IMG/VR virus record: IMGVR_UViG_3300046727_000067
Location: 1 to 28,927 of that record
Length of the DNA stretch: 28,927 nucleotides
Reading direction: 5' to 3' (one strand)
Source of the DNA: a virus
This document shows, in pieces, positions 5,339 through 19,266 of the stretch. Position 1 is the stretch's first letter. Each line of letters opens with the position of its first letter. The translations under genes and the position numbers were made by a program. Under the pieces are notes generated by a model. The model was given only the letters and a program-made list of their open reading frames with translations, was not told the origin of the DNA and ran no database searches.

Positions 5339-5604
5339 TCTTCATTGATCGCCGTCAGCGGTGCCTGCAATGTGGGAAGGTGCTGACGAGGCGGCGGCAC
5401 AGCACGATCAGCGGCAAGTTTTGCAGCATGTCGCATAGCCTGATCTTTCTCCGTGAGCATGGGATCGCTGCGGGTGATTTGGCGCAGCGACAGCCGGTCG
5501 AGGGTCGGCCGCAGGGATGCGAGACGGTGGAGGCGTGGTTGCTGGCTGGTGGTCGGGTGTACCGGGAGGATGATCCGGCGCTACGGGCGCGGGGGATTGG
5601 TTGA
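5335..5604 (+). CDS. Small zinc-finger-like protein
   Basis: This 89-residue protein begins at an ATGA overlap. Near the N-terminus it has C10-x2-C13 in RCLQCGKVL, and then C30-x3-H34 in KFCSMSH. The spacing suits one treble-clef or C2CH zinc site. The rest (IAAGDLAQRQPVEGRPQGCE, VEAWLLAGGRVYRED) looks like a short helical tail. It could be a small DNA- or protein-binding factor of the packaging region. Function is unknown. Confidence 0.55.
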   Translation: MIFIDRRQRCLQCGKVLTRRRHSTISGKFCSMSHSLIFLREHGIAAGDLAQRQPVEGRPQGCETVEAWLLAGGRVYREDDPALRARGIG

Positions 5605-5733
5605 ATGAGCGATCGTCTTCAGGCGTGGTTTCGCCAAATGTCGAATGATTTGCGGTTGTTAGCCAATCGTCTGGAGGAGGAGCGGATGCTGCGTGAGTAT
5701 GGCGCGGTAGGGTTTGTCCCAAATCATGCCTGA
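5605..5733 (+). CDS. 42-residue small protein before the portal gene
   Basis: The frame starts immediately after the TGA of the zinc-finger-like gene and encodes MSDRLQAWFRQMSNDLRLLA, then NRLEEERMLREYGAVGFV. It is a likely amphipathic helix or short coiled coil. A GGGGGA sequence lies upstream as a possible ribosome site. Its end overlaps the start of the portal gene by 8 bases, so it may couple translation to the portal. Because it is so short, the call rests on coupling and helical pattern only. Confidence 0.45.
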   Translation: MSDRLQAWFRQMSNDLRLLANRLEEERMLREYGAVGFVPNHA

Positions 5734-7357
5734 CTTCGGCGGCAACTTTGCCCCGATCGAGCGCCGCGAGGACATTGGCGACGATGCGAGTGCTGTGTGC
5801 CGGTTTTGGTTGCAGCAGTTGCGGCTGGCTGAGCGTGAGGACCGCAAGTGGGTGAAGACGGGGCGGTTAATTGTCAAGCGGTATCGGGATGAGCGGCGGG
5901 ATAACCCGTCGCGGAACACGGCGAAGTTCAACATCTTGTGGAGCAATGTCGAGACGCTGAAGCCGATTCTTTATGGGCGCACGCCGAAGCCTGATGTGCA
6001 GCGGCGGCACAAGAATGGGGATGAGTCGGCGTTGTTGGGCGCGGAGATTCTGGAGCGGGCGTTGGCGTATGAGGATGACCTCGACGAGTTTGATGAGGTG
6101 ATGCAGCGGGTGGTCGAGGATCGGTTACTGCCGGGGCGGGGCGTGGCTCGGGTGTTTTATGAGCCGGAGTTTGGCGAGCCGGAGGATGACCCTGACGCGG
6201 AGCCGGATGAGGATGGCAAGCGGCCGACGTTTCGGCCGGTCGATAACGAGCGGGCGCCGGTAAGGTATGTGTTTTGGGAGGATTACCGGGAGGCGCCGGC
6301 TCGGGTTGACAATGACGTGTGGTGGAAGGCGTATCGCGCGTACATGACGCGGGACGAATTGGTCAAGCGGTTCGGCAAAATCGGGAAAGAGGTGACGCTC
6401 GACTACACGCCGAAGGGTCTGGAGGACGATGGCGAGAAGGGACCGCAGGCGGATGCCTTCAAGAAGGCGCAGGTCTGGGAGATTTGGGACCGGCAGAAGA
6501 AGCAGGCGATCTGGGTGGCGCCGTCCTATCCCGAGGGTCCGCTTGACCGGAAGAGTGATCCGCTGGAGTTGCCGGGGTTCTTTCCGAGTCCGCGTTCGCT
6601 GAGTGCGACGACGACGAACGAGACGCTGGTGCCGGTGGCGGACTATTCGGAGTATCAGGACCAGGCGATTGAGTTGGATATCTTGACGGGGAGGATCGAC
6701 AAGCTGACGACGGCGCTGAAGGTGGTCGGGTTGTACGCGGGGGAGAGCAAGGCGGAGATATCGCAGCTGTTAACCGATACGGGTGCTGAGAACATGCTTA
6801 TTCCGGTCGAGGGGTGGGGGTTGTTTATGGAGAGGGGCGGGTTGCAGAACGCGATCGTCTGGGCCCCGATGGAGCAGATCGCTAAGGTATTGATTCAGTT
6901 GTATGATGCACGGGATCGGGTGAAGCGGACGCTTTACGAGATCACGGGGATGGCGGACATCTTGCGGGGGGAGACGAACCCGACCGAGACGCTGGGGGCG
7001 CAGCAGTTGAAGGCGCAGTTTGCGACGCGACGGGTGAGCCGAGCGCAGAAGCAGGTTGCGCGGTTTGCGCGGGATTTGATGCGGCTGCGCGGTCAGGTGA
7101 TGGCGCGGCATTTTTCGCCCGAGACCTTGGGGCAGATGAGCGGGTTGCCGGAGCAGTTGCCGGCGATGCCGGCGATGCCGCCGATGATGGTTCCGGCGCC
7201 GCCGCAGGCGCCATCGATGCAGCCTCCCGCCGTCCCCTCGGGAGGTATGCCGCCGGGAGTGCCCTCTCCGGGTGGCATTGCGCCGGGTAGCGGTGTGGCT
7301 GCTGGGGGTAGCCTACCGCCGCCTGTGCATCCGATGGTTGCGGGAGCAACGCCATGA
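5726..7357 (+). CDS. Portal protein, N-terminal and core part (split portal)
   Basis: This 543-residue protein forms the DNA entry ring at one vertex. The N-terminus DRKWVKTGRLIVKRYRDER and the stretch TAKFNILWSNVETLKPILYG are typical of a podovirus portal family. Later AQQLKAQFATRRVSRAQKQV and RFARDLMRLRGQVMARHFSP match the long helices of the crown-proximal region. Related portals usually continue past a Pro-rich linker into a further domain. Here the protein stops after about 70 Pro/Met/Gly-rich residues, and the missing domain is encoded at 7608-8393. Start ATG 5726 is preferred over an in-frame TTG at 5714, whose position relative to the GTAGGG site is too close. It ends in an ATGA overlap. 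Confidence 0.85.
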   Translation: MPDFGGNFAPIERREDIGDDASAVCRFWLQQLRLAEREDRKWVKTGRLIVKRYRDERRDNPSRNTAKFNILWSNVETLKPILYGRTPKPDVQRRHKNGDESALLGAEILERALAYEDDLDEFDEVMQRVVEDRLLPGRGVARVFYEPEFGEPEDDPDAEPDEDGKRPTFRPVDNERAPVRYVFWEDYREAPARVDNDVWWKAYRAYMTRDELVKRFGKIGKEVTLDYTPKGLEDDGEKGPQADAFKKAQVWEIWDRQKKQAIWVAPSYPEGPLDRKSDPLELPGFFPSPRSLSATTTNETLVPVADYSEYQDQAIELDILTGRIDKLTTALKVVGLYAGESKAEISQLLTDTGAENMLIPVEGWGLFMERGGLQNAIVWAPMEQIAKVLIQLYDARDRVKRTLYEITGMADILRGETNPTETLGAQQLKAQFATRRVSRAQKQVARFARDLMRLRGQVMARHFSPETLGQMSGLPEQLPAMPAMPPMMVPAPPQAPSMQPPAVPSGGMPPGVPSPGGIAPGSGVAAGGSLPPPVHPMVAGATP

Positions 7358-7611
7358 GCGATACTGGCGTGATCTTGAATACGGCGGCCAATGCGTTCAT
7401 AAAAATGCGCGCGAGGCGGAATGAAGATAGTCCAGTGAAAGTGTTGGCAGATATTTCATGCATGATGGAAGAAGGTGCCATACCTCGGGAACCACTTCCG
7501 AAAATAATGGATGTTTACCGGCGCGCATTTGAAATGGGACTAATACCCAGGGATGATTTTGAAAAGTCGCTTCGGGAAGCGATGGTACGGGATGGGACAC
7601 TAGGGCCATGA
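7354..7611 (+). CDS. 85-residue protein inserted between the portal halves
   Basis: The gene overlaps both neighbours at ATGA (7354-7357 and 7608-7611). It encodes a mostly helical soluble protein starting MSDTGVILNTAANAFIKMRA, with the C-terminal stretch RRAFEMGLIPRDDFEKSLRE. Its sequence is AT-richer than the portal genes on either side, which suggests later insertion. I know no family. Translational coupling would make it together with the two portal parts. It could be a portal-associated accessory protein or a passenger gene. Confidence 0.65.
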   Translation: MSDTGVILNTAANAFIKMRARRNEDSPVKVLADISCMMEEGAIPREPLPKIMDVYRRAFEMGLIPRDDFEKSLREAMVRDGTLGP

Positions 7612-8393
7612 GCGACATGCCTCCAGGCATGATGCCGCACCCGCCGATGGGCGGAAACGTGCTGCCGTTCCCTGGCGGCGGAATGATGCCGCCGCAACAG
7701 CCGCCGATGATGCTGAACCCTGCCTTCGCGCAGTGGATGCAGATGAAGCAGGCATGGGATGCGGAGACGGCGAGCCGGCAGCAAAAGTTCATGGCGGCGT
7801 GCGAGTTGCTGCGCGGGGACGCGGCGAAGGCCTACAAGATCGATATCGAGGCCGACAGCACGGTTGCGGCTGACGAGGAGGCGGAGAAGGCGGCGCGGAC
7901 GGAGTTCCTGCGAGCAATCGTGCCGTTTATGGAAACGATGGTGCCGATCATGCAGCAGAACCCGGCGATGGCGCCGCTCGGTGCTGAGATGATCAAGTTT
8001 GCTTTTCACGCCTTCCCGTCGAGCAGGCAGCTTGAGGACGCGCTCGATAGCGCGCTCGAAAAGATGCAGCATATGCCGCCACCGCCGCCGCCGCAGAAGG
8101 GCAACACCAAGTCGCCGCAGGAGATTCAGGCTGAGACGCAGATCGAGGGCGCGAAGTTGCAGGCGACGCAGCAGCAGACGGCGGCTAAGGCGGCGTCTGA
8201 CCAGCAAGCCAATGCGGCGAAGGTAATTTCGGCGCAGATTGAGGCGAGCGCTGACCAGCAGCGGACGACGGCGGAGAACCAGCTACGGATTGCCGAATTG
8301 TCGCTTCGGGGACGCGAGGTCGCCGGGCGCGAGGCACTGGATGCGGCGAGGCTGACGCATCTGGCGTCGCGGGATACGAAGGGGCTGGTGTGA
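7608..8393 (+). CDS. Portal protein C-terminal part (split portal)
   Basis: Of 261 residues, 1-36 are Pro/Met/Gly-rich, mirroring the end of the upstream portal part. Residues 37-150 contain LLRGDAAKAYKIDIEADSTV followed by DEEAEKAARTEFL. I recognise this as the segment found near the C-terminus of single-chain portals of this family, where 'idIEtDSTi.pDE.aek.ar.eFl' is typical. Residues 136-150 (FPSSRQLEDALDSAL) also fit that family. A PPPPPP run follows, then a Gln/Ala-rich helix (170-240) that probably forms the barrel or crown coiled coil. It should assemble with the 543-residue portal part. Alternatively it is a separate head protein derived from the portal tail. Confidence 0.75.
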   Translation: MSDMPPGMMPHPPMGGNVLPFPGGGMMPPQQPPMMLNPAFAQWMQMKQAWDAETASRQQKFMAACELLRGDAAKAYKIDIEADSTVAADEEAEKAARTEFLRAIVPFMETMVPIMQQNPAMAPLGAEMIKFAFHAFPSSRQLEDALDSALEKMQHMPPPPPPQKGNTKSPQEIQAETQIEGAKLQATQQQTAAKAASDQQANAAKVISAQIEASADQQRTTAENQLRIAELSLRGREVAGREALDAARLTHLASRDTKGLV

Positions 8394-11191: not shown

Positions 11192-12226
11192 ATGGCAAGC
11201 CCGAATACTAATTGGGGTGAGATCACCACCACCACCCTCTACAATCGGTCGCGCAAACTGGCCGATAACGTCACAAAAAACAATGCGCTGCTCCGCCGCC
11301 TTTCCGAACGCGGAAAGATCAAGGATTTCGACGGCGGCCAAGCGATCGTGCAAGAGCTGGAATACAGCGAGAACGGCACCTACAAGCGCTACAGCGGCTA
11401 CGACATCCTGAACATCACGCCGTCCGACGTTTTCACGGCGGCGCAGTTCTCGATCGCGCAGGCCGCCGTCGCCGTCTCGATCTCCGGCCTCGAAATGCTG
11501 CAGAACAGCGGCAAGGAGAAGATGATCGATCTTCTCGACGCGCGGATCGGCAACGCCGAGCGGACTTTCGAGAATAACCTGTCGAGCGACTGCTATTCGG
11601 ATGGCACGGCGGACGGTGGCAAGCAGATCGGCGGCTTGCAACTGATCGTCGCCGATGTCGGCACCTCCGGCACGGTCGGCGGCATCAGTCGGCAGACCTG
11701 GCCCTTCTGGCGCCCGAACAACCAATCGTTTGCGACCGCTGGCCTCGTGCCGAGCGCTGCGACGATGCAGACGATGATGAACCGCACCTGGCTCGCTCAG
11801 GCGCGCGGTCCCGATCGGCCCGACCTGATCATCGCCGATAACGTCTACTACCGCTACTACTGGGAAAGCCTCCAGGCGATCCAGCGCATCTCGCGCACCG
11901 ATGACGGGATGGCCGGGTTCGGCAGCCTCATGTTCATGGACGCCGATGTCGTCTACGACGGCGGCTTTCAGGGCGTCGCGGCAGGCAACGGCTCGGCGAT
12001 CAACGGCGCCGGCATCACATGGACTTCCGGCAGCGGCGCTCCGGCGAGCCACATGTATTTCCTCAACACCGACTACTTGTTCCTGCGCCCGCATCGGGAT
12101 CGGAATATGACTCCCTTGGACCCAGATCGCTTTAGCGTCAACCAAGACGCGATGGTCAAGCTCGTTGGCTGGGCGGGAAATCTGACCTGTAGCAACAGTT
12201 TCCTGCAAGGCGTTTTGACTGCGTGA
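11192..12226 (+). CDS. Major capsid (coat) protein
   Basis: This 344-residue protein begins ASPNTNWGEITTTTLYNRSR, followed by KLADNVTKNNALLRRLSERG and FDGGQAIVQELEYSENGTY. These segments, together with LNITPSDVFTAAQFSIAQAA and VAVSISGLEMLQNSGKEKM, are characteristic of a widespread HK97-fold phage coat family I recall from environmental podo- and siphophages. No N-terminal delta domain or protease site is evident. GGAG about 8 bases before the ATG is a suitable ribosome site. The gene is more GC-rich and codon-uniform than many neighbours, as expected for the most abundant product. It follows the scaffold gene and a leader hairpin. Confidence 0.9.
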   Translation: MASPNTNWGEITTTTLYNRSRKLADNVTKNNALLRRLSERGKIKDFDGGQAIVQELEYSENGTYKRYSGYDILNITPSDVFTAAQFSIAQAAVAVSISGLEMLQNSGKEKMIDLLDARIGNAERTFENNLSSDCYSDGTADGGKQIGGLQLIVADVGTSGTVGGISRQTWPFWRPNNQSFATAGLVPSAATMQTMMNRTWLAQARGPDRPDLIIADNVYYRYYWESLQAIQRISRTDDGMAGFGSLMFMDADVVYDGGFQGVAAGNGSAINGAGITWTSGSGAPASHMYFLNTDYLFLRPHRDRNMTPLDPDRFSVNQDAMVKLVGWAGNLTCSNSFLQGVLTA

Positions 12227-12270: not shown

Positions 12271-12783
12271 ATGACGTGGATTTTCCAGGAGAACCGCCTC
12301 GGCCTGCAGCCGATCGAGGTTACGAGCACGGTGCAGAACACGGACGAAGGCACTGTTGCTCGCGCTTATGATTCGAGCGGCGTTCAGGGCGGTGGCGAGT
12401 TCATCTACCTGAAGGGCGTCGATAGTACCGTCGTCGGGTCGCTGGTAACCTATAACATGGTTTCTCATGTGACGACGCTGTCAGCAAACACAGGCAACCA
12501 GAATTCCCCGGTTGCGGTCGCCATGTCGGCGAACGTGACGGGATCGTGGGGTTGGTATCAGATCGGCGGGGCTGCCGTCATCAAGAAGACAGCTGTGAAG
12601 GTCAGTCCCTCTGTTCCGCTGTATCAGAGCGGTACGACCGGACGCGTGATGTCTACGGCGGCATCTGGCAAGCAGCTTATGAATGCGCGCTCGGCGAATG
12701 TGGCGGGCGCCACGGTTGCGTCGGCGACGAGCACGATCACGGCGATCATCGACCGCCCATTTTTACAAGGTGCGGTTGTCTGA
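12271..12783 (+). CDS. Capsid-associated (decoration-like) protein
   Basis: This 170-residue protein starts TWIFQENRLGLQPIEVTSTV, with a good ribosome site (AAGGTAAGGAG). The core GGGEFIYLKGVDSTVVGSLV, then the SPVAVAMSANVTG and SWGWYQIGGAAVIKKT segments and the final IDRPFLQGAVV, match a common small phage protein that directly follows the coat gene. The pattern is beta-rich and suits a capsid surface decoration or stabilising protein. The exact role is not established in my memory. It lies immediately upstream of the enzyme cassette. Confidence 0.7.
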   Translation: MTWIFQENRLGLQPIEVTSTVQNTDEGTVARAYDSSGVQGGGEFIYLKGVDSTVVGSLVTYNMVSHVTTLSANTGNQNSPVAVAMSANVTGSWGWYQIGGAAVIKKTAVKVSPSVPLYQSGTTGRVMSTAASGKQLMNARSANVAGATVASATSTITAIIDRPFLQGAVV

Positions 12784-12813
12784 TCCGTATCTCTTGCAAT
12801 TATAGGTTACGGA
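12784..12813 (+). promoter_or_regulatory. Hairpin and weak promoter-like sequence before the enzyme cassette
   Basis: The 31-base gap holds TCCGTA (12784-12789) and its perfect complement TACGGA (12808-12813). TATAGG at 12801-12806 lies 19 bp after TTGTCT (12776-12781), a weak -35/-10 pair. The next start codon follows 1 base after the hairpin arm. The arm could therefore mask the ribosome site, or the region may give the cassette its own promoter. Confidence 0.25.
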
Positions 12814-12814
12814 A

Positions 12815-13444
12815 ATGCCGAACGACAGCGATTTCTCCGGCGTTCATCCGCAGGCCATCGTGGAACCGTGGGTGACGCTTGGGCGCGGCGTTGTCGTGCA
12901 TCCCTATGCGATTGTCGGGAGGGTGCCGGACACAAGCCCGGCGCTCGCCCGACAGCCCCAGTGGACCTATGAATTGCATATTGGCGCCGGCACAGTAATC
13001 GGGCCGCATGCGATCGTGTATAGCGGTGCGGTGATCGGCGAGAATTGCCTGATCGGTGACTTCGCCAGCGTGCGCGAGGGGAGCCGGCTCGGGGATCGCG
13101 TGGTTGTCGGGCGCTATGTCTCGATCAACTACGATTGCGAGATCGCCGATGACGTGCGGTTTCAGGACACGACGCACCTGACTGGCGGGGCGAGGGTCGG
13201 GCGAGGATGCTTCTTCGGGGTCGGGGTCGTTACGTCGAACGATCGCCGGGTTGACCTGCAAAACTATCATTATCCCGGCGCGCAACCGACTATATTTGGC
13301 GAGCGGGTGTTGGTCGGTTCCGGAGCGAACGTACTGGCCGGCGTGCAGGTTGGCGACGATGCCGTGGTCGCGGCGGGCGCGCTCGTGGTCAAGGACGTTC
13401 CTGCTGGCGTGACGGTCATGGGACCGATTGCGAGGGCGGCGTGA
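12815..13444 (+). CDS. Left-handed beta-helix (hexapeptide-repeat) acyltransferase
   Basis: This 209-residue protein is built of hexapeptide repeats: HPQAIVEPWVTLGRGVVVHP, IGAGTVIGPHAIVYSGAVIG, LGDRVVVGRYVSINYDCEIA and VLVGSGANVLAGVQVGDDAV. Such trimeric LbH enzymes transfer acetyl or acyl groups from CoA or carrier protein to amino- or hydroxy-sugars and similar acceptors. The C-terminal GALVVKDVPAGVTVMGPIAR is the usual end of sugar O- or N-acetyltransferases. The ribosome site is weak (ACGGAA). It overlaps the hydrolase gene by 4 bases (GTGA), so the two are coupled. Substrate unknown; a glycan on the virion or cell surface is plausible from context. Confidence 0.85.
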   Translation: MPNDSDFSGVHPQAIVEPWVTLGRGVVVHPYAIVGRVPDTSPALARQPQWTYELHIGAGTVIGPHAIVYSGAVIGENCLIGDFASVREGSRLGDRVVVGRYVSINYDCEIADDVRFQDTTHLTGGARVGRGCFFGVGVVTSNDRRVDLQNYHYPGAQPTIFGERVLVGSGANVLAGVQVGDDAVVAAGALVVKDVPAGVTVMGPIARAA

Positions 13445-13998
13445 TCGCTATCAGCCACCGAGGATATGATACGACGGTTGTCGCCTTTTCGGGCATGGCG
13501 CCGCAGAACCACATTTACGAGTGGACGACGGCATTCGAGGATTTCCCGGCGAATTTTATCGGCGTGCAGGACGAGCACCAATGCTGGTATCAGCGCACCG
13601 GCCTGAGTGTAGTGCGCAGTCTGCTACGGCAGAAAATGGCGGGAATGACGGTCTTTGTCGGCGGCTCTGCCGGGGGCTTCGCGGCTCTTTGGTTTGGCAA
13701 GATGATGAAGGCTGATCGGATTATCGTGTTTTGCCCACAATCAGCGTGCGGTAAGGCGAAGCGTGAGCTGGGGGACCATCGCTGGCCGGGGAAATGCGAA
13801 CAGACGCCGGCAAGGGACATTGCGGGCACTTATCCGCAGGCGATGGTACATTACGCGGAGAACGATGATCTTGATGCGATGCACGCCGCTCGATTGGGGG
13901 CGGAGCGTCGCAAGTGGGCGCATGGCGGGCACGATTTGCCGCATCGGCTAAAGGAGAGCGGTGCATTGCGCGGCCTTCTTATGGACGCGATGGCATGA
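13441..13998 (+). CDS. Alpha/beta hydrolase-like protein (probable esterase)
   Basis: This 185-residue protein starts at GTG 13441. It shows a serine hydrolase nucleophile elbow VGGSAGGFAAL with S76, a possible acid in ENDDLDAMHA (D142, D143 or D145), and a possible catalytic His in WAHGGHDLPHRL (H161 or H164). The order and spacing fit a compact alpha/beta hydrolase. The segment MVHYAENDDLDAMHAARLGA resembles capsule or O-antigen region hydrolases that sit beside glycosyltransferases. Paired with the acyltransferase before it, it could remove or adjust acyl groups on the same glycan. This is inference. It overlaps the next start at ATGA. Confidence 0.7.
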   Translation: MIAISHRGYDTTVVAFSGMAPQNHIYEWTTAFEDFPANFIGVQDEHQCWYQRTGLSVVRSLLRQKMAGMTVFVGGSAGGFAALWFGKMMKADRIIVFCPQSACGKAKRELGDHRWPGKCEQTPARDIAGTYPQAMVHYAENDDLDAMHAARLGAERRKWAHGGHDLPHRLKESGALRGLLMDAMA

Positions 13999-15461
13999 AC
14001 GTCGTCTCGATATACGCTCCTCGTCCAGAGCACCCGCTCTATCAGGATTATACGCCGTTTCTCGACATCCTGCGCGAGTCGTGCAAGCGCTACGGCCATC
14101 GGCATATCGTCATCACCGACGATCTTCAGGTGGGGCAGTATCCCGAGGGCACGCTCGATTACAGCGGTGGTGATGCTTTCTTTGTGGAGGCACTGCCGCG
14201 CCCGCTGATGAAGGCGATCATTTTCGGGCAGCTGGCCTATCTCAATTCGTCGCTCGCCAAGGAAGATACGCTGTTCCTGGGCGCCGATTGCGTGCTGGCG
14301 CGCGATCCGGCCGAGGTGTTCAAGCGGGAATTCGACATCGCGTTTACGGTTGGGCCGTTTGCTGACTGCGTGCTGAACACCGGGGCGATCTTCATTCGCA
14401 GCGGCTTCGATGCAGCCTATATCTGGGTGCGAGCCTTCGCCAACATGGGCGAGGAATGGGGAGATGACCAGAAGGCGCTAGCTGCGGTAGTCAAACCCAC
14501 ATCAACGCCGAGCGTCGTTTGCAGCTATGGCAACGGGCCGGTCATCCGCTTCCTTCCGGTCGATCCGTACAATCTTGCGCCGGAGTATCCTGACGACGAC
14601 TGCTCGCGCGGCTACGTCCTGCACTTTCGGGGCGAACGCAAGCAGTGGATGAAGGACTATAGCGCGAAGTGGCTCGGAATCGGCGAGCGGATCGAGTGGA
14701 ATGTCGTTTCGAATTCGCCGAAGGACAAGATTTTCGAGAATGTGGCAATCAATAGCCGGCGGCAGATACCGTGGGCGAAGGAGATGCCTGCGCATGACGG
14801 GCACGCCGTCATTGTCGGGGGTGGGCCATCGGCTGCCGATTGCCTCAACGATTTGCGCCGCCGGGAGGCGCAGGGACAGGATTTATTTGCGCTGAACGGC
14901 GCGGCGCAATGGCTGGCGCAATACGGCTTAATTCCTAAATATCAGGTTTTGCTAGATTCTCGTCCGCAGAACCGGCGCTTTGTGCGGCCTATTTGTGCTG
15001 AAGCGTTCCTCGTCGCCTCCCAATGCGACCCGGCGATCTTCGATATCTTGAGCCGTGAAGACGTGACGCTGTTTCATCATGCCGAGGAAGGCATTGAGGG
15101 GCAGTTCGAGGGACATTCGATCCTCATCGGAGGCGGCATCACGGTCGGGTTAACGGCGCTGGCGCTGGCCTATGCGCTTGGCTATCGGCAGATGCACCTC
15201 TATGGCTACGACAGCAGTGACCGGGACGGCGAGAGCCACGCCTACGCGCAGGCCGAGGCTGGCGCGGAGAATGAGCGCCGCGAGGTCTGGTGCGGTCGCA
15301 AGAAGTTTGTCTGCTCGCCGGCTATGTACGCCCAGGCGCAAGCGTTCCCCGAGTTCGCCAAGCTGCTGGCCGATCACGGGGTCGTCATCACGGTTCATGG
15401 GTCAGGACTGTTGCCGGAAGTCGCGCGGCAAACCTTTGGCATGGCGCAAGCCGCCGCATAG
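13995..15461 (+). CDS. Two-domain glycosyltransferase-DUF115 (MptE-like) fusion
   Basis: This protein is 488 residues long from ATG 13995. Residues 1-240 look like a GT-A glycosyltransferase related to GT8: KEDTLFLGADCVLARDP (89-105) supplies a DxD-like site, and VLHFRGERKQWM (208-219) matches the 'HF.G..KPW' end motif. Residues 268-475 match DUF115, seen in MptE 6-hydroxymethylpterin pyrophosphokinases and in motility-accessory Maf proteins: HAVIVGGGPSAADC, NGAAQWLAQYGLIPKYQVLL and LIGGGITVGLTALALAYALG. Fusion of the two in one chain is unusual. It could glycosylate a virion or cell-surface target; a nucleotide-linked role is the main alternative. It is the last gene of the three-gene coupled cassette. 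Confidence 0.75.
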   Translation: MNVVSIYAPRPEHPLYQDYTPFLDILRESCKRYGHRHIVITDDLQVGQYPEGTLDYSGGDAFFVEALPRPLMKAIIFGQLAYLNSSLAKEDTLFLGADCVLARDPAEVFKREFDIAFTVGPFADCVLNTGAIFIRSGFDAAYIWVRAFANMGEEWGDDQKALAAVVKPTSTPSVVCSYGNGPVIRFLPVDPYNLAPEYPDDDCSRGYVLHFRGERKQWMKDYSAKWLGIGERIEWNVVSNSPKDKIFENVAINSRRQIPWAKEMPAHDGHAVIVGGGPSAADCLNDLRRREAQGQDLFALNGAAQWLAQYGLIPKYQVLLDSRPQNRRFVRPICAEAFLVASQCDPAIFDILSREDVTLFHHAEEGIEGQFEGHSILIGGGITVGLTALALAYALGYRQMHLYGYDSSDRDGESHAYAQAEAGAENERREVWCGRKKFVCSPAMYAQAQAFPEFAKLLADHGVVITVHGSGLLPEVARQTFGMAQAAA

Positions 15462-15472
15462 GAGAAATCAAG

Positions 15473-15835
15473 ATGGCTCTGAAATCAGAATTGATGGCAG
15501 CCGGTATGCCCGCCGGAGAAGCGCGACAACTCGGTCAAGATGCCGTGCAGACGGTTGTAGGAGCTGGCACAACGCAGGCCACCGGGACCGCATTGAGCGG
15601 CAATTTCACGATTGTCTCGACGGCGCCTGCAAGCTCTGGCGTGGTGCTGCGGTCGACCGGCAATCAGGGGCCGCAACTGATCTACAATGCCGGCGCGAAT
15701 ACGCTGAAACTCTATGGCAACGGTTCTGAGACGATCAACGGCATCGCGGGCGCGACCGGTGTTTCGTTACCGACGCTGAAGGCGGCAATTATTATCGGCG
15801 CCGGCACCGGCTCGATCGCGATCATCAGCGCCTAG
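15473..15835 (+). CDS. Small beta-rich structural protein
   Basis: This 120-residue protein starts ALKSELMAAGMPAGEARQLG after a strong AGGAGAA site. The start with 'ELMAaGMPa.qA..lG' and the following beta-rich part (TTQATGTALSGNFTIVST, LIYNAGANTLKLYGNGSETI) match a common phage protein found between head and adaptor genes. It is probably a small virion protein. No enzymatic motif is seen. It follows the enzyme cassette with an 11-base gap, so the structural gene order resumes here. Confidence 0.65.
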   Translation: MALKSELMAAGMPAGEARQLGQDAVQTVVGAGTTQATGTALSGNFTIVSTAPASSGVVLRSTGNQGPQLIYNAGANTLKLYGNGSETINGIAGATGVSLPTLKAAIIIGAGTGSIAIISA

Positions 15836-18912: not shown

Positions 18913-19266
18913 ATGGCAATCCGTCCATCAGTTCTGTTTGGCGAAACTCCTGTGTCGAATTCGGCAGCAGCGCTCTATACGGTGCCCGCGAGCACGACGG
19001 CAGTGATCACGCGAGCAGTAGTTACCAATGTAACGGCATCGCCCGCGACGTTGACATTATGGCTTGTGCGAGCTGCCGGGTCGCGAGCTGATGGGAATAT
19101 CATTGTTGGCGCCGCTGCGGCGGGGCAATCGATTGGTGCGGGGCCGGCGGAGCCAACTGTGTTGAACGCGTTAGCTGGTTTGGTGCTGAATGCGGGAGAT
19201 GCCATTCATGGATTAAGCGCCACGGCGGCGGCGCTCAATATCGGTGCTAGCGGGTGGACTCATTAA
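18913..19266 (+). CDS. Small beta-rich virion protein
   Basis: This 117-residue protein starts AIRPSVLFGETPVSNSAAAL, then YTVPASTTAVITRAVVTNVT. The start 'ALYTVPA.T.AvIt.vvv.N.t' with alternating beta strands (TLTLWLVRAAG) is typical of small phage proteins found near tail genes. No enzymatic motif is present. It lies just before the tailspike and may form part of its mounting or a small tail protein. This is inference from position. Confidence 0.65.
   Translation: MAIRPSVLFGETPVSNSAAALYTVPASTTAVITRAVVTNVTASPATLTLWLVRAAGSRADGNIIVGAAAAGQSIGAGPAEPTVLNALAGLVLNAGDAIHGLSATAAALNIGASGWTH

Follow-up and report, generated by a model that had tools for sequence, protein, structure and literature searches.

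Why would a phage place sugar-modifying enzymes among its head genes? This question is raised by IMG/VR virus record IMGVR_UViG_3300046727_000067, analysed here over its full 28,927 bases (the window), in which three genes following a structural gene encode an acyltransferase, an alpha/beta-hydrolase-fold protein and a two-domain glycosyltransferase. Capsid homology and gene order identify the phage as an Mx8-like podovirus. Based on gene order, homology, predicted folds, selection and co-inheritance, we consider it on balance probable that the enzymes carry out a late cytoplasmic O-glycosylation of the adjacent decoration-like protein, with swappable capping modules, in Mx8-like podoviruses. 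A bolder version, plausible and held more tentatively, is that the Maf-type glycosyltransferase and its decoration acceptor travel as a self-contained module in which methyl and acyl capping are exchanged, giving a variable sugar coat on the shell. The acceptor, the sugar, the acyl chemistry and the benefit (masking, adsorption or head stability) are what we infer from these data. The genes concerned are:

12815..13444, + strand: gene 1, hexapeptide-repeat (left-handed beta-helix) sugar acyltransferase, 209 aa; assigned by Pfam
13441..13998, + strand: gene 2, alpha/beta-hydrolase-fold protein, 185 aa, GTG start; assigned by predicted fold
13995..15461, + strand: gene 3, GT8-like and DUF115/Maf-like glycosyltransferase fusion, 488 aa; assigned by PF01973 and predicted fold
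12271..12783, + strand: decoration-like virion structural protein, proposed acceptor, 170 aa; PHROG 29386 'virion structural protein'

For gene 3 the longer listed open reading frame (ORF) starts at 13914. The product of 12271-12783 is presumably a decoration protein, judging by its size and place.

The three gene products and their coupling

Pfam recognised the MptE-like/DUF115 domain in gene 3 (PF01973; 44.9 bits, gathering cut-off 34.6). In the predicted model of the protein (predicted local distance difference test, pLDDT, 76.7) the best structural match of this domain was the Maf flagellin glycosyltransferase, with residues 236-478 superposing on 5mu5 at Z 21.6 and a root-mean-square deviation of 2.8 over 219 aligned residues. 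The GT8-like half went unseen by Pfam and was seen by fold comparison, in which GT-A/GT8 structures best matched residues 1-234 of the model (glycogenin, Z 12.9-14.0; 3tzt, Z 13.2). The GT8-like/DUF115 fusion described in the initial annotation is thereby borne out.

Gene 1 scored 96.6 bits against Pfam Hexapep (cut-off 27), in agreement with its first assignment as a hexapeptide-repeat acyltransferase. By model it lies nearest to the NeuD/PglB/VioB group of acetyltransferases, under the curated cut-off (TIGR03570; 106.6 bits, cut-off 160.8), and GlmU and QdtC were among its sequence matches in the PDB. H121, which we take from related enzymes to be the catalytic histidine, is kept in 6 of 8 homologues and replaced by N in relative L116 and by F in relative L038.

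Gene 2 contains the GGSAGG motif, and its S76 (within the motif), an acid near D142 and H164 are conserved in all three aligned sequences, two of which are 97% alike. A model built from these three sequences (pLDDT 72.0) places S76 after strand 69-75, the acid after strand 134-139 and H164 after strand 155-159; the predicted fold is thus that of the alpha/beta-hydrolase superfamily with Ser, acid and His in canonical positions, and the plausible triad noted at first inspection stands within that small sample. Of the catalytic residues, whose conservation the same annotation required, those of the hydrolase are kept in all three sequences, while a fully conserved acyltransferase active site was not supported. 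No family exceeded its cut-off for gene 2 (UPF0227/YqiA, 17.9 bits; Pfam cut-off 21). Its fold matches comprised esterase-side structures (Est30, Z 14.7; YqiA, Z 14.6) and glycan O-acetyltransferases (group range Z 13.6-14.2, including CsaC at 13.8 and, at 14.2, the Gap123 complex 6oyc). With the two groups tied, the enzyme may either add or remove acyl groups: the predicted structure could be that of an esterase or, equally, of an O-acetyltransferase. The hydrolase had no match among INPHARED phages and none in plasmids, and rescanning viral contigs with its alignment returned four loci, all on contigs already in our set of relatives. In a bacterial genome (L141, 5418-10078) two hydrolase cousins lie beside a GT8-like gene, and the ORF holding one of them extends into a region that looks capsule-export-like (both by eye).

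The ORF coordinates agree with the gene order claimed initially and with its overlaps, GTGA between genes 1 and 2 and ATGA between genes 2 and 3. By eye, genes 2 and 3 each lack an evident ribosome-binding site in the 20 bases upstream, which suits translational coupling. The location of the cassette behind the decoration-like gene and within the late head operon was likewise upheld, the upstream genes falling into PHROG 9953 and PHROG 29386. A weak promoter and a hairpin had also been placed ahead of the cassette, and neither was recovered: between 12200 and 16000 there was no promoter-like site on the + strand and one on the - strand (mean of shuffles, 1.2), and fold z-scores of -0.02 (12784-12830) and -1.46 (12715-12815) did not rise above chance. 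Some 30 bases separate the decoration-like gene from gene 1 in the window; in the close relative L004 the gap shrinks to about 5 bases, where no leader hairpin would fit. Compared with L004, the ratio of non-synonymous to synonymous substitution rates (dN/dS) was 0.048 for the hexapeptide gene, 0.071 for the hydrolase and 0.085 for the glycosyltransferase-DUF115 (GT-DUF115) gene, indicating purifying selection. The original observation is thus partly confirmed, for the genes, their order and their coupling.

GT-DUF115 had no match in INPHARED phages, and an alignment search of genome contigs found five metagenome-assembled contigs, 30-42% identical over essentially the DUF115 part. In one relative (L100, 2484-3926) the GT8-like half matched 31 phage records at 23-31% identity, among them P1 PmgQ and P7 HdmD, which are annotated as having a putative morphogenetic function or as glycosyltransferase. 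Several of the top BFVD matches were uncultured phage proteins named 'MptE-like', and one was named a methyltransferase-domain protein; they may belong to the system described here, under names that mislead.

Occupancy of the capsid-to-p50 slot in relatives

The cassette lies between three further genes of the window, which served as landmarks or proved shared with other phages:

11192..12226, + strand: major head protein, Mx8-like upstream landmark; PHROG 9953 (E 2.4e-111) and INPHARED matches
15473..15835, + strand: small downstream protein, 120 aa; homologues in the DUF115-less relatives L031 and L033
15846..16601, + strand: Mx8 p50 homologue, downstream landmark; assigned by homology

Given its homologues, the 120-aa protein is not cassette-specific. 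The capsid protein had 12 INPHARED matches, all below 60% identity, including Myxococcus phages Mx8 and Mx9, Stenotrophomonas phage BUCT555 and Bradyrhizobium phage ppBjS10J-1. Further relatives came from IMG/VR, many of them through a capsid scan (the best 80 of at least 592), and the final tally covered 98 non-window contigs or records with both capsid and p50, each counted once and near copies on different contigs kept; 14 repeat loci and L001 were left out.

A DUF115 gene occupied the interval between capsid and p50 in 39 of the 98 (23 of 74 for loci from the capsid scan alone). Every other modelled gene was found with it: the GT8-like domain in 32 slots, a methyltransferase, fused or adjacent and often fused to DUF115, in 20, the hexapeptide gene in 9 and the hydrolase in 4 (L002, L003, L004 and L038), always together with the hexapeptide gene. 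Hexapeptide gene and methyltransferase never occurred together; one or the other accompanied DUF115 in 29 of 39 slots, while six slots held DUF115 without any other modelled gene. None of the 59 slots lacking DUF115 contained a hexapeptide gene, hydrolase or methyltransferase. Three of these four stand near the window phage, L002 and L003 as near copies and L004 as a close relative. L038 is diverged (74% identity in the capsid, 48-49% in the hydrolase, 44-45% in GT-DUF115) yet has retained the whole trio, in unchanged order and in this slot, so that the trio is known from two lineages. On a capsid tree, from which L009 was omitted for its partial capsid, the hydrolase label required 2 changes and the DUF115 label 14, which implies many gains or losses at the slot.

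These data show that the DUF115 glycosyltransferase is the core and the trio one configuration of a modular system with optional helpers. The proposal that the three genes form a cassette, and the suggestion to look for the same trio in other phages, thus met with a mixed outcome: the trio was found again in a single diverged phage and its helpers, in this sample, occur only with DUF115, but the unit is the DUF115 glycosyltransferase, not the trio. The slot attracts other elements too: in L009, L011, L012 and L116, ORFs of about 242-258 aa that look HNH-like by eye have been inserted next to the decoration gene.

The candidate acceptor and competing explanations

The pathway that we propose would run as follows. 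Expression of the cassette would come with that of the late head operon, in which it immediately follows the decoration-like gene. The DUF115/Maf-like domain would act in the cytoplasm, while heads are being assembled or earlier, and transfer an activated host sugar to Ser/Thr residues of the decoration-like protein; the fused GT8-like domain would add or extend a sugar. The hexapeptide enzyme may acylate the sugar, either on the donor or as protein-bound glycan, and the hydrolase-fold enzyme may add or remove an O-acyl group and thereby shape the finished surface. Relatives would use a methyltransferase instead of the acyl module and so cap with methyl groups. A host donor is assumed, given that no sugar-nucleotide synthesis genes were found among the ORFs scanned, which cover part of the genome; in the 58 kb relative L003, 10 ORFs scanned out of 59 candidates past base 19000 contained no further glycan genes.

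Co-inheritance points to the decoration-like protein as the partner of DUF115. It was found in 87 of the 98 rows of the tally, leaving 11 without it, and 85 of these 87 (all but L027 and a row whose p50 stretch is short) entered a comparison of three trees. The DUF115 label changed 6 times on the decoration tree and 11 times each on the capsid and p50 trees, and the decoration tree had fewer changes in 98-99% of 300 subsamples of 45 rows. Composition was compared in 64 of the 87 rows, 25 of them with DUF115, after dropping near copies and L027. With DUF115 present, the Ser+Thr fraction of the decoration protein was higher by 0.033 after phylogenetic correction (p 0.001; 0.0018 at lambda 1), while capsid (p 0.12) and p50 (p 0.71) showed no significant shift. 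The window protein has a fraction of 0.218, and within its clade (n = 15) the ten members with DUF115 range from 0.169 to 0.224 and the five without from 0.127 to 0.167. This is suggestive of the decoration-like protein as acceptor, not proof. As to whether the target is the virion or the host surface, between which the initial annotation did not choose, co-inheritance and the Ser/Thr shift favour the virion without proving it.

Several observations weigh against this reading. When only supported branches are counted, the label changes number 3 for decoration, 4 for p50 and 7 for capsid, which makes the lead of decoration over p50 thin, and the decoration alignment is heterogeneous, with 182 of 673 columns kept. 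The compositional change is not special to Ser/Thr: with DUF115, decoration Gly falls (p 2e-7, a stronger effect), Lys rises, Gln falls and Asn rises. Over all 87 rows the Ser+Thr shift gives p 0.845 in a lambda = 1 fit and p 0.0003 at the best-fit lambda; of 8 independent pairs, a comparison of low power, 3.8 were for, 0.3 against and 4.0 undecided, with a median p of 0.25. The eight INPHARED records examined out of the 12 with capsid matches (seven of them annotated; a second Mx8 record is among the other four) have neither DUF115 nor helpers in the capsid-p50 slot. The sequences behind the helper models all came from slots with DUF115, so that helpers of another kind may have gone unseen elsewhere. 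L003, a near-identical relative, carries one in-frame TGA in its GT-DUF115 gene (about 5387-5815), which is open in the window, L002 and L004; either the gene is dispensable or the contig is flawed. At the GT8 DxD position the window and L004, L008, L012, L116 and L038 have GAD, where nine other rows have DLD (eight) or DLS (L070), although the presence of the metal-independent GT-A enzyme 4ayl among the fold matches means that GAD need not imply inactivity. The putative catalytic histidine of the hexapeptide enzyme is lost from L116 and L038. Hydropathy revealed no N-terminal signal-like segment by eye, with 19-residue peaks of 1.67, 1.33 and 1.88; the first and last lie inside domains of two proteins, so that membrane contact is not cleanly excluded. 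The glycan on the virion is itself proposed from sequence and predicted structure, as are the acylation and editing steps of the initial annotation.

Among the alternatives the one that survives best, though we regard it as unlikely, is that the enzymes alter surface polysaccharide of the host, be it capsule or lipopolysaccharide, during late infection or in the lysogen and block superinfection or re-adsorption, in the manner of O-antigen conversion. Of 289 genomes sampled from the class of a Hyphomicrobium metagenome-assembled genome, 3 matched the hydrolase; the best of these cellular cousins (E 9.8e-13) adjoins a protein with Pfam Glycos_transf_1 domains and also lies beside two ORFs that look GT8-like and capsule-export-like (by eye; Pfam was empty for the latter), and the capsule O-acetyltransferase CsaC is among the fold matches. 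This neighbourhood supports surface-glycan chemistry for the hydrolase family and does not tell the target in the phage. However, the cassette has no polymerase or flippase partner, it stands among head genes behind a structural gene with no detectable promoter, its DUF115 gene best fits the decoration tree, and methyltransferases fused to DUF115 are a frequent helper in relatives.

It is improbable, in our judgement, that the enzymes modify another virion protein, namely the capsid, the 120-aa protein or a tail spike. All of them belong to the same module, as products of the virion or the late operon, and inspection by eye finds the 120-aa protein rich in Ser/Thr; but its homologues also occur in L031 and L033, which lack DUF115, and neither capsid nor p50 shifts significantly in Ser+Thr.

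Less probable again is that the three genes are loosely linked cargo of an insertion hot spot and share no pathway. Repeated gain and loss of DUF115 on the capsid tree, the HNH-like insertions beside the decoration gene and the restriction of the trio to two lineages would all fit such a view. It is countered by the fixed order of genes that overlap at start and stop codons and have low dN/dS, by the occurrence of hexapeptide gene and hydrolase only with DUF115, also in the diverged L038, and by the fact that neither helper stands alone in any of the 98 slots.

Very improbable, finally, is that DUF115 acts as MptE, a 6-hydroxymethylpterin diphosphokinase, in a module of pterin or nucleotide metabolism: PF01973 is named for MptE and the domain matches the archaeal pterin kinase 8sd5 (M. 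jannaschii HPPK) at Z 15.2, yet Maf matches better, most DUF115 slots also hold a GT8-like domain and a hexapeptide enzyme or methyltransferase, and L038 weakly matches the flagellin modification protein PseD (20.7 bits, far below the cut-off of 670).

Known systems, significance and further observations

Glycosylation of the decoration-like protein would have partial counterparts in several systems. As described in PMC11339370, Maf enzymes O-glycosylate flagellin on Ser/Thr and have an N-terminal degenerate Rossmann-like domain and a central pfam01973 domain resembling Cst-II. Besides the DUF115 fold, a working analogy is that in both cases a self-assembling surface protein would be modified. 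The N-terminal half of the phage enzyme, GT8-like by predicted fold, probably sets it apart from Maf; the phage protein ends at residue 488, ten past the DUF115 match, without a Maf-like C-terminal helical bundle, and phage enzymes have either nothing or a methyltransferase after DUF115. The phage gene, moreover, lies beside a head gene, not flagellin, which was absent from the scanned ORFs of window and relatives.

PBCV-1 is an algal virus, and the GT-A fold of its major-capsid glycosyltransferase (2p73/2p6w/2p72) is near that of the N-terminal half of gene 3 (Z 13.8-14.2), at 12% identity and with no DUF115 part in the match. For gene 2, the match in the Gap123 complex was chain 6oyc_B, which we take to be Gap2. 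In the accessory Sec system, a Gram-positive export system, the GxSxG enzyme Asp2/Gap2 is paired with intracellular glycosylation (PMC7948813, PMC5578698), as gene 2 would be, and Asp2 is described as an O-acetyltransferase with a Ser-Asp-His triad (PMC7948813); the tie in Z with plain esterases means that the likeness does not tell the activity. Mycobacteriophages Che8 and Rita are reported to have glycosylated major capsid proteins, and phage-encoded glycosyltransferases are thought to modify virion proteins (PMC11256854). The glycosyltransferase genes of Maravista lie near the 3' genome end according to the same source, whereas here the Maf-like enzyme sits inside the head operon and is accompanied by acyl or methyl helpers. 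The Mx8-like podoviruses Mx8, Mx9, BUCT555 and ppBjS10J-1 have capsids 45-57% identical and similar gene order, but neither DUF115 nor helpers were found in their capsid-p50 slot. By analogy, Maf may serve as precedent for transfer, Asp2 for acylation of an intracellular glycoprotein and Che8 and Rita for glycosylated capsids.

Phage virion glycosylation is thus already known; this enzyme class, its pairing with a decoration gene and the interchangeable caps we did not find in print. A search of an open library returned no work joining DUF115, phage and glycosyltransferase; by titles, MptE-like with phage gave unrelated work only, and none of the further matches listed concerned a virion-glycosylation cassette of acetyltransferase, glycosyltransferase and structural genes. 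A term search of the main text of the paper on Mx8-like PhiGT1 (PMC10386132) did not find 'glycosyl'. If our reading is correct, Maf-like protein glycosylation would be a recurrent phage strategy beyond flagellin, and the neighbouring gene would encode a candidate for the acceptor. Two questions would become testable, namely the reason for glycosylating phage heads and the way in which DUF115 enzymes recognise their acceptors, and uncultured phage proteins annotated 'MptE-like' would gain a function. From the initial interpretation, sugar-modifying enzymes in a late head operon are retained, and the trio as unit and the promoter and hairpin of its own are given up.

Elsewhere in the window, the portal is encoded by two ORFs, 5714-7357 and 7608-8393, which match the first and last parts of PHROG portal family 12082 and are separated by an 85-aa ORF (7354-7611), reflecting either an insert or a true split. 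The portal halves are also apart in L003 and L012 and almost adjoin in L013.

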